Shown one piece after another: positions 47,701 through 54,185 of a DNA stretch of 64,000 nucleotides; the first letter of the stretch is position 1, and every line of letters starts with the position of its first letter. The stretch is from assembly GCF_030160635.1 (NCBI RefSeq), contig NZ_BSOS01000007.1, positions 124,001 to 188,000 on the forward strand. The letters are read 5' to 3'. The stretch comes from Acidocella aquatica (GTDB taxonomy: Bacteria; Pseudomonadota; Alphaproteobacteria; Acetobacterales; Acetobacteraceae). The translations under genes were made by a program, and so were the position numbers. The notes under the pieces were generated by a model that had not been told where the DNA came from, did not search any database, and saw nothing but the letters and a program-made list of their open reading frames with translations.

Positions 47701-49284
47701 CTAGGCTGCCTCCACGTCGCGGGCCAGCGCGCTCTCGACCAGGGCGATCGTGCGCTCGATGCCATAGAGCGCGATGAAACCGCCGAAACGAGGGCCTTCG
47801 ACCTGCCCGAGCAGAACCTGATACAGGCAGTCAAACCAGGATTTTAGCGGCGCGAAGGGGTGGCGCTTGCCGATGGCGTAGACCAGGTTTTGCAATTGCT
47901 CCGCCGGGGTTGCGCCGGGGTATTGCACCATCTCGTTCGCCTTCAGGCTTTCGGCGAGGTCGATCAGCGCGCCGCGCTCCACATCGCTCGGCGCGCGGAA
48001 CTGCTTTTTGGGCGCCACGAAGTCGCGGTTGTAGACGATGGCGTGGTGCACGAGCCGGGCCAGGAAGGGGTAGGTCTCGGCGTTCGCGCCGGGGATATAG
48101 GCGCGGATGAAGCCCCAGAGCATTTCCGGGCTGTCGGCGTTGATGACCGAGGCGAGATTGAGCAGCATGGTGAAGCCGATGGGCGAGCCGGCGTGTTCGG
48201 GAACTTCACCGCCATGAATATGCCAGGCCGGGTTTTCATATGGTTTTTCGGCCGTGGGCAAAGCGGCGACGCTGGCGATATAATCGTCGGTCGCGCGGGG
48301 GATGACATCAAAGAACAGGCGCTTGGCGCGCTGCGGCGCGTGGTACATGAACTGGCCCAGGCTCTCCTTGGGCGCGTAGGTGAGCCATTGCTCGACCGAG
48401 AGGCCGTTGCCCTTGGATTTGGAGATTTTCTGGCCCTTGTCGTCCAGGAACAGCTCATAGGTGAGGCAGACCGGCGGCTCGGTGCCCAGCGCGCGCACGA
48501 TGGCGGAGGAGAGCTTCACCGAGTCGATGAGGTCTTTGCCGGACATCTCATAATCAACGTCCAGCGCGTGCCAGCGCATCGCCCAGTCGGCCTTCCATTG
48601 CAGCTTGGCGGCGCCGCCGGTGACGGCGGTCTCATATTTCGTGTTGGTGTCCGGGTCGGTCCAGAACACGGTGCCGTGTTCAACGTCCACCTGGTCAATG
48701 GGCACCTGCATGACGATGCCGGTGCGCGGGTGGATGGGCAGGATGGGCGAATAGCTGGCGCGGCGCTCCGGCCCGAGGCTCGGGCGGATGATGTCGACGA
48801 TGGCGCCGTGATGCGCGAGCACATGCAGCAGCGCATTGTCGAACCGGCCGGAGGCGTAATAATCAGACGAGGAGGCGAACTCGAACTCGAAGCCGAACTC
48901 GTTCAAAAAATCCTGCAGCATGTTGTTGTTGTGCTCGCCGAAACTGTCGAACTTGCCGAAAGGGTCCGGCACTTTGGTCAGCGGCTTGCCGAGGTGCTGC
49001 TTGAGCATCTCCTTGTTGGGCACATTGTCGGGGACTTTGCGCAGCCCGTCCATGTCGTCGGAGAACGCCAGCAGGCGCGAGGGCAGGCCGGTGAGATCAG
49101 TGAAGGCCTTGCGCACCCAGGTGGTGCGGGCGACCTCGCCAAAGGTGCCGATATGCGGCAGGCCGGACGGGCCGTAGCCGGTCTCGAACAACGCCTCGGT
49201 CTTGCCTTTTTGCTTCAAGCGCGCGGCAACACGTTCGGCTTCACGGAAGGGCCAGCTCGGCTGGGTAGAAATCTGTTCGCTCAT
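47701..49284 (-). CDS. lysK: Class I lysyl-tRNA synthetase
   Basis: LysK is the archaeal-type class I lysyl-tRNA synthetase found in most alphaproteobacteria in place of the class II LysS. The 527-residue protein has the HIGH-type motif GPSGLPHIGTFGE (about 33-45) and KISKSKGNG (KMSKS equivalent, near residue 285). Length is normal. It diverges from the DinG-like helicase gene across 46 bp, and a membrane-protein gene follows it. Confidence 0.96.
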   Translation of the reverse strand: MSEQISTQPSWPFREAERVAARLKQKGKTEALFETGYGPSGLPHIGTFGEVARTTWVRKAFTDLTGLPSRLLAFSDDMDGLRKVPDNVPNKEMLKQHLGKPLTKVPDPFGKFDSFGEHNNNMLQDFLNEFGFEFEFASSSDYYASGRFDNALLHVLAHHGAIVDIIRPSLGPERRASYSPILPIHPRTGIVMQVPIDQVDVEHGTVFWTDPDTNTKYETAVTGGAAKLQWKADWAMRWHALDVDYEMSGKDLIDSVKLSSAIVRALGTEPPVCLTYELFLDDKGQKISKSKGNGLSVEQWLTYAPKESLGQFMYHAPQRAKRLFFDVIPRATDDYIASVAALPTAEKPYENPAWHIHGGEVPEHAGSPIGFTMLLNLASVINADSPEMLWGFIRAYIPGANAETYPFLARLVHHAIVYNRDFVAPKKQFRAPSDVERGALIDLAESLKANEMVQYPGATPAEQLQNLVYAIGKRHPFAPLKSWFDCLYQVLLGQVEGPRFGGFIALYGIERTIALVESALARDVEAA

Positions 49285-52139: not shown

Positions 52140-53759
52140 ATGGATATTCAACTGGTTTTTGATGCAAGTACGAGCTTTGCTCCCGCCGGTTTCATCACGG
52201 CCATGGATTATGCGGCCAGCCAGCTCGACGCGCTGATAACCGACCCCGTGACGGTCAGCCTTTCGGTCTCCTGGAACCAGGCCGTGTTCGGCGAGGGCGG
52301 GCCAAATATGGGGCAATACAGCTACGCCGCCGTTGCCGCCGCGCTGAAGGCCCATGCCTCAACCCCCGCAGGCATAGAGGCCGCCGCCAACCTGCCCGCC
52401 GTGGACCCGACCGGGACCGGGTATCTATTGATTTCCGATGCGCAGGCCGAGGCGCTCGGCCTTATGACAGGCTCCGCCGGGCCGGGGCAGGACGGGTCAG
52501 TTACCTTCGGCACCGCAGGCCAGACGCTGGATTTCAGCACCACCGGGACCAGCGTGCCATCCAACCAGTATGATTTTGTCGGCATCGCCGAGCATGAGCT
52601 GACACATGCGCTGGGGCGGATCGACGCGAATTCCGGCCGGCCGCAGTTCATCATGGATTTATATAAATATGCGTCGCCCGGCACGCTGCAGACCAACGGC
52701 GCGAACCTGACATATATCTCGGTCGACGGCGGCACCACGGCGGTCGACACGCTTTCAACCGCGTCCGACCTCTCCGACTGGGCGTCCAACGCCGGGAACG
52801 ACGCCTTCACCGCCTATGCCAATCCGGGCGTGCTGAACACAATTTCATCGGCTGACATGACGCTGATGAGCGCGCTGGGGTTCAATGTGCTGTGCTTCGC
52901 GGCGGGGACGCGCATCGCCACGCCGGATGGCGAAGTGGCGGTGGAGAGCCTGGCGCTCGGCGATGAGGTGTTGAGCCTCTTCAAGGGGCGCCAGCGGGTT
53001 AAGTGGATCGGGATCAGCCATTATGACGGGCGGTTTTTAAAAGGAAACCACCTGATGCTGCCGGTTTGCATCAAGGCCGGGGCGCTGGGCGATGGGGTGC
53101 CCGCGCGGGCGCTTTGGGTCTCGCCCGGGCATGGGATTCTGGCCGGTGGCGGGCTGGTGCCGGCATGGCGGCTGGTGAACGGCGTGAGCGTGACGCAGGC
53201 GCAGAGCGTGGAGCGGGTCAGCTATTATCATATCGAGCTGGCGGCGCATGATGTGGTGTTCGCGGAAAACTGCCCGGCGGAGAGTTATCTCGATATTGGC
53301 GAGCGCCAGAAATTCCATAACGCGGCGGCATTTGAGGCGCTGTATCCAGGTGAAGAGGCGGCGCCCTTGGCCTGTATGGCGCGGCTGGAGGATGGTTTTG
53401 GGCTGCGCGATGCGCAGGCAGCGGTGAACGCGCGGGCGGGGATTGCGCCGGTGGCCGAATTGGCCGGAGCGTTGCGCGGGGCGCTGGAGGTGGCCGGGCC
53501 GGAAGTTTGCGCGGGCTGGGCGGTTTGCGAGGCGTGCCCTGAGGTGCCGGTGGAGCTGCTGGTTTTCGCCGGGGCCGAGGTAGTGGCGCGGGTGGTGGCC
53601 AACGGCTACCGGGCGGATGTGCGGGCGGCGGGGCTGGGCAGCGGATGCTGCGGATTCGCGGTGGCGATTCCGGCGGGGGCTAAGGGCGCGGTTTCGGTGC
53701 GCCGCGCGTTGGATGGGGCGGAAGTGGGGGTTGGGGGTGAGGTGGCGCGGGTGGCTTGA
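52140..53759 (+). CDS. Metzincin-like metalloprotease fused to a Hint domain
   Basis: This 539-residue protein has two parts. Residues 1-250 resemble NF038122-type metalloproteases, with HELTHALGRID (152-162), a HExxHxxGxxD zinc motif as in snapalysin. Residue 252 begins a Hint domain: CFAAGTRIATPDGEVAVESL (252-271), then SPGHGILAGG and a segment ending ENCPAESYLD. A further region of about 130 residues follows. Hint domains self-cleave, so the protein may process itself after secretion. No classical signal peptide is visible. It stands alone downstream of the helicase gene. Confidence 0.82.
   Translation: MDIQLVFDASTSFAPAGFITAMDYAASQLDALITDPVTVSLSVSWNQAVFGEGGPNMGQYSYAAVAAALKAHASTPAGIEAAANLPAVDPTGTGYLLISDAQAEALGLMTGSAGPGQDGSVTFGTAGQTLDFSTTGTSVPSNQYDFVGIAEHELTHALGRIDANSGRPQFIMDLYKYASPGTLQTNGANLTYISVDGGTTAVDTLSTASDLSDWASNAGNDAFTAYANPGVLNTISSADMTLMSALGFNVLCFAAGTRIATPDGEVAVESLALGDEVLSLFKGRQRVKWIGISHYDGRFLKGNHLMLPVCIKAGALGDGVPARALWVSPGHGILAGGGLVPAWRLVNGVSVTQAQSVERVSYYHIELAAHDVVFAENCPAESYLDIGERQKFHNAAAFEALYPGEEAAPLACMARLEDGFGLRDAQAAVNARAGIAPVAELAGALRGALEVAGPEVCAGWAVCEACPEVPVELLVFAGAEVVARVVANGYRADVRAAGLGSGCCGFAVAIPAGAKGAVSVRRALDGAEVGVGGEVARVA

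Positions 53760-53796: not shown

Positions 53797-54185
<389 letters not shown>

Follow-up and report, generated by a model that had tools for sequence, protein, structure and literature searches.

Type-B bacterial intein-like domains, which are without block G, cleave without splicing (PMC4031507; PMC7765530). Nine putative RTX proteins with homology to Hedgehog/Intein domains have been described (PMC3034196), and in a secreted RTX protein of Ruegeria an intein-like block yielded no peptides (PMC2953401). HINT peptidases are also known from polymorphic toxin systems, where they release C-terminal toxins (PMC3482391). In our literature search, no paper was found on the function of the Hint_2 module, nor on metallo_LGF proteases or their fusion to Hint_2.

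The window (the whole stretch of 64,000 nucleotides analysed here, from the acid-loving bacterium Acidocella aquatica) contains a gene for such a fusion, whose features are listed in table 1. The protein had been described, from the letters of the DNA, as a protease followed directly by a Hint domain starting at Cys252 and by a C-terminal region, and this layout was confirmed by the open reading frame and by matches to NF038122 (152 bits against the curated NCBIfam cut-off of 80, spanning profile positions 3–274 of 274) and to Pfam Hint_2 (141 bits against the gathering cut-off of 28.4). Neither match is due to chance. Only two residues separate the two domains, and the Cys252 codon lies at 52893–52895. 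Pfam itself makes no call on the protease domain; weak matrixin-like matches were found in a few relatives (best E = 0.0076). An AlphaFold2 model of the 539-residue protein with four orthologues had a pLDDT of 31.7 and was discarded. The reported absence of a visible signal peptide also held: a simple hydropathy rule detected no signal-peptide-like stretch, even when earlier in-frame starts back to the previous stop were included.

Table 1. Coordinates of the metalloprotease–Hint_2 gene and its domains and motifs within the window
Feature	Position	Strand	Evidence
CDS, metalloprotease–Hint_2–tail fusion, 539 aa, ATG start	52140..53759	+	ORF listing; Pfam/NCBIfam matches
metallo_LGF (NF038122) metalloprotease domain, residues 18–249	52191..52886	+	E = 2.5e-44, 152 bits vs cut-off 80
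HELTHALGRID, residues 152–162 (HExxH zinc-binding helix)	52593..52625	+	sequence
Asp173, candidate third metal ligand	52656..52658	+	alignment; putative role
Leu251-Cys252, predicted scissile bond and Hint nucleophile (Cys1)	52890..52895	+	Cys 77/77, residue -1 variable
Hint_2 domain (PF13403), residues 252–385	52893..53294	+	E = 4.1e-41; profile matches 2lwy, E = 3e-5
Block-B motif S328-P-G-H331	53121..53132	+	His 77/77; Ser 75/77, Thr 2/77
Block-F/G region H364-I-E-L-A-A-H370 ... A-E381-S382	53229..53285	+	block-F His kept; block G His-Asn replaced by Glu-Ser
C-terminal tail, residues 386–539 (~150 aa), long-tail class	53295..53756	+	tail common to paralogue in L074/L002

Several other elements were noted in the window. 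An ORF of 98 codons lies downstream of the fusion gene (53806–54102); the start of its product resembles GIY-YIG/group I intron endonucleases (NCBIfam E = 0.2, below the cut-off). It was considered as a partner or immunity gene and rejected, having no match in the other 37 genus genomes searched. An inverted repeat at the end of this ORF (54096–54185; 33-nt arms, 94% complementary and 24 nt apart) resembles a mobile or REP-like element. On the minus strand, 47701–49284 reads, from its sequence only, like a class I (archaeal-type) lysyl-tRNA synthetase.

To characterize the protease domain, we aligned 94 metallo_LGF sequences. The domain has an HExxH-type active site (HELTH, residues 152–156), in which His152 and Glu153 are nearly invariant, whereas position 156 is His in 46 sequences and Glu in 48. 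The sequence-only reading had extended the protease signature to HExxHxxGxxD. This did not survive the comparison: only 11 of 21 genus copies have D162, and the wider family does not conserve it. Because Asp173 is kept in 92 of the 94 sequences and D162 is not conserved, Asp173 is probably the likelier third metal ligand, and the third ligand at motif position 11 of metzincins and matrixins was not found. HExxE forms (such as HELTEVMGR and HEISEVLG) are common in RTX- and Hint-fused proteases and account for about half of the aligned domains. In addition, two copies in one genus genome (L033 and L037 of G012) are without the first His (GELSHALGR and VELTHALGF) and may be inactive.

The cleavage competence of the Hint domain was examined in an alignment of 77 distinct Hint_2 domains, nearly all of them from the same bacterial family. 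Cys1, the block-B His (S/T-x-x-H) and the block-F His (His370) are present in all 77, as are Asn347 and Glu381, and His364 in 76. The position just ahead of Cys1 is variable (A, P, L, T). A search of this alignment for missing catalytic residues thus found every residue of N-terminal cleavage in place. On the other hand, the C-terminal His-Asn of inteins (block G) is absent from all 77 domains, which have Glu followed by Ser or Thr instead, and the combination of a C-terminal His-Asn with a +1 nucleophile that marks a splicing intein was not found. When a profile of the Hint_2 domains was compared with solved structures, the best match was a bacterial intein-like domain (2lwy, E = 3e-5).

Since the N-cleavage residues are kept and the His-Asn is absent, the domain resembles a type-B bacterial intein-like domain, with an N-terminal Cys nucleophile (C252), a block-B S328-P-G-H331 and no block G. 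By its sequence features, Hint_2 here would thus qualify as an N-cleaving, non-splicing Hint, splicing not being expected because of the missing His-Asn. Self-processing before Cys252 is a prediction well supported by residue conservation, and the fusion is under purifying selection (see below). It had been proposed that the protease might be released or activated in this way; the invariant N-cleavage residues are consistent with predicted release, and activation is not favoured over it.

We then analyzed the distribution of the fusion. Orthologs at 87–94% identity occur in Acidocella MAGs and Proteobacteria MAGs, and the same domain order was found well beyond this gene: in all 21 metallo_LGF-carrying genus genomes (of 37 in the search for relatives) the protease is fused to Hint_2. 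The viral contigs scanned and the phage records yielded no relatives. In close relatives the gene is flanked by a dinG-like helicase gene and ffh, and ffh still adjoins it in members at only 52–56% protein identity. In pairs with enough divergence, dN/dS was 0.14–0.30 in most comparisons for the protease, the Hint domain and the tail, and all three parts of the fusion are under purifying selection. Comparison of window positions 52140–53708 with positions 1486–3054 of L010 revealed about 98 differences in the first 723 bases and only 6 in the next 846, the shift falling near the protease/Hint junction. This pattern looks like a recombination of the C-terminal module; a chimeric assembly is also possible, since the L010 MAG contig is short and breaks off within the gene.

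Hint_2 is present across Alphaproteobacteria and is abundant in Acetobacteraceae-type bacteria: 188 of the 249 genomes sampled from this family carry it, often in several copies. This Acidocella aquatica genome has nine Hint_2 genes. Among the 36 pairs of these paralogs, the Hint domains are similar in every pair (38–80% identity), the tails in 10 and the N-terminal passengers in only one. The tail of the 539-residue protein is 47% identical to that of the paralog L074 over 138 residues, and tails in the 77 Hint_2 proteins are mostly 48–66 or 147–207 residues long. On Acetobacter and Neokomagataea plasmids (L173, L174), two neighbouring Hint_2 genes lie close to IS6-family transposases, which suggests that the module travels.

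Within the family, metallo_LGF proteases occur with a signal peptide and PEP-CTERM, as signal-less forms with an RTX-type ending, as signal-less forms with Hint_2, or at the end of the chain, behind repeats. Every form of the protease on which Hint_2 was seen is without a signal; by a crude hydropathy rule, none of 65 complete Hint proteins appeared Sec-dependent, compared with 13 of 19 PEP-CTERM sisters. Across a tree built from 93 protease domains, the Sec/PEP-CTERM label changes 3 times and the Hint label about 8 times, just two of the latter changes being forced by the starred branches alone. One Hint fusion (L096) is nested in the RTX group beside an RTX protein, where the forks have only 80–92% SH-aLRT support. 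Judging from this phylogeny, C-terminal modules are exchanged repeatedly among metallo_LGF proteases. Most likely, the Hint_2 module (Hint plus tail) stands where sister proteases have an RTX/type I or a PEP-CTERM tail.

These sisters, which carry either a Sec signal with PEP-CTERM or a signal-less RTX-type (type I) tail, partly answer how the protein might leave the cell, a point that the sequence-only reading had left unclear. The genome contains one type I exporter pair, which consists of an HlyD protein above the cut-off and an ABC protein whose N-terminus gives a weak C39-like match below the cut-off. The RTX domain (PF00353) is absent from the whole genome. Of 38 genus genomes, 5 have RTX domains and 31 a type I HlyD exporter; in the good assemblies, the exporter is present in 22 of 23. 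As the exporter is kept without RTX substrates, signal-less Hint_2 proteins are natural candidate substrates. The 539-residue protein shares with type I substrates the lack of an N-terminal signal and is without RTX nonapeptide repeats. In well-assembled family genomes, Hint_2 was carried by 160 of 203 with the exporter versus 2 of 7 without it, counts that ignore kinship; this co-occurrence is weak evidence for a type I route because almost all genomes of the family have the exporter. No type I exporter was found next to the Hint_2 gene in the 12 plasmid-borne neighbourhoods examined, nor beside the gene in the window. The exporter pair itself (L131, G000:C65:117000-135000) lies beside glycosyltransferase and Sel1/TPR-type genes, with no candidate substrate adjoining. 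From a reading of the sequences, a domain shared by the tail and the glycosyltransferase next to the exporter was considered; it was dropped when a profile built from the tails gave no hit in that protein.

Taken together, we propose with moderate confidence that the product of the gene is an extracellular metalloprotease whose precursor has no signal peptide and carries an exchangeable Hint_2 module as its C-terminal half; after export, the protease would be set free by self-cleavage before Cys252. The precursor would leave the cell by a route that reads a C-terminal signal, most likely the single type I exporter of the genome, acting through the tail. The Hint domain would then undergo an N-S acyl shift at Leu251-Cys252, probably helped by His331 and the block-F His, as the invariant residues suggest. 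Hydrolysis of the thioester would free the protease domain (residues 1–251) and leave the Hint-tail part behind.

The main rivals to this explanation are a scaffold that does not cut and a mechanism that hands the protease over to an acceptor at the surface. As a scaffold, Hint_2 would serve in export, folding or tethering, and the protease would work without being separated from Hint and tail. The variable residue before Cys1 (A, P, L, T), unlike that of Hedgehog, which has a fixed Gly there, fits such a role, and so do tails that are conserved in their own right. However, it is hard to explain why a domain that does not cut should keep Cys1, the block-B His and the block-F His in 77 of 77 cases on mostly unrelated passengers, and we regard the scaffold as unlikely, if still the best placed of the alternatives.

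Somewhat less probable still is a Hedgehog- or exosortase-like transfer, in which a nucleophile (a lipid, a surface sugar or a protein amine) would take up the Hint thioester and the protease would become anchored. Sister proteases do have PEP-CTERM sorting tails at the same position, and Glu381 is invariant where inteins carry the penultimate His. In addition, the only exporter lies beside glycosyltransferase genes, and 5 of the 12 Hint_2 genes on plasmids are located within polysaccharide or glycosyltransferase clusters, although this adjacency comes from a small sample with no control. Against a transfer, no acceptor or sterol-recognition-like domain was identified. A broader version appears doubtful to us: Hint_2 might be a self-contained alphaproteobacterial sorting system, an export tag that cuts itself outside the cell and passes the newly formed C-terminus of its passenger to a surface lipid or polysaccharide acceptor. 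If so, it would do in one chain what PEP-CTERM and exosortase do in two.

There is little to recommend a polymorphic-toxin-like arrangement, in which the effector would be the C-terminal tail, freed by Hint, and the protease only a stalk. HINT peptidases act in this way in such systems, and one paralog weakly matches Pfam PT-HINT, below the cut-off. However, the Hint_2 tails fall into few conserved classes and the N-terminal passengers vary, which is the reverse of polymorphic toxins, and the small downstream ORF, found in none of the other genus genomes searched, is no conserved immunity gene. A true intein that splices the protease to the tail is very improbable despite the Hint fold and N-terminal motifs, given a C-terminal His-Asn in none of 77 domains, no homing endonuclease insert, and a position close to the end of the protein, where two domains meet.

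Self-release of an exported protease remains our preferred reading. The protein can be compared with several known systems. Its Hint domain is like type-B bacterial intein-like domains in having the Hint fold, intein-like N-terminal motifs, no block G and an expected cleavage without splicing, a likeness drawn from the published definitions. With type I secreted RTX proteins the 539-residue protein shares a signal-less, modular organization of passenger plus a predicted C-terminal export module, but it has no RTX repeats, and Hint stands at the C-terminus where sister proteases have RTX; the intein-like block of the Ruegeria RTX protein, unlike that of the 539-residue protein, ends in HN. The order of a secreted effector, a Hint domain with N-terminal Cys and a C-terminal extension recalls Hedgehog (Hog), whereas no sterol-recognition region was identified here and the residue before Cys1 is not Gly. 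Polymorphic toxins with PT-HINT differ in that here the tails are conserved, the passengers vary and the small neighbouring ORF was found in no other genus genome searched. The closest counterparts of the protease half are the metallo_LGF proteases with PEP-CTERM, which share the protease domain and the LGF/LGW end motif but carry a signal peptide and an exosortase-type tail in place of the signal-less form with Hint_2.

Both parts of the fusion are already known; what is new is their recurrent pairing, the genus-wide fixation of Hint_2 on the protease, and the replacement of an RTX or PEP-CTERM ending. The repeated swap of end modules hints at the way in which such proteins leave the cell and are released. 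As one catalytic domain that occurs naturally with three alternative C-terminal endings, the metallo_LGF family offers a clean test, in which the role of Hint_2 in export and processing can be set directly against the PEP-CTERM and RTX endings, which are better understood, on an enzyme whose activity is measurable.
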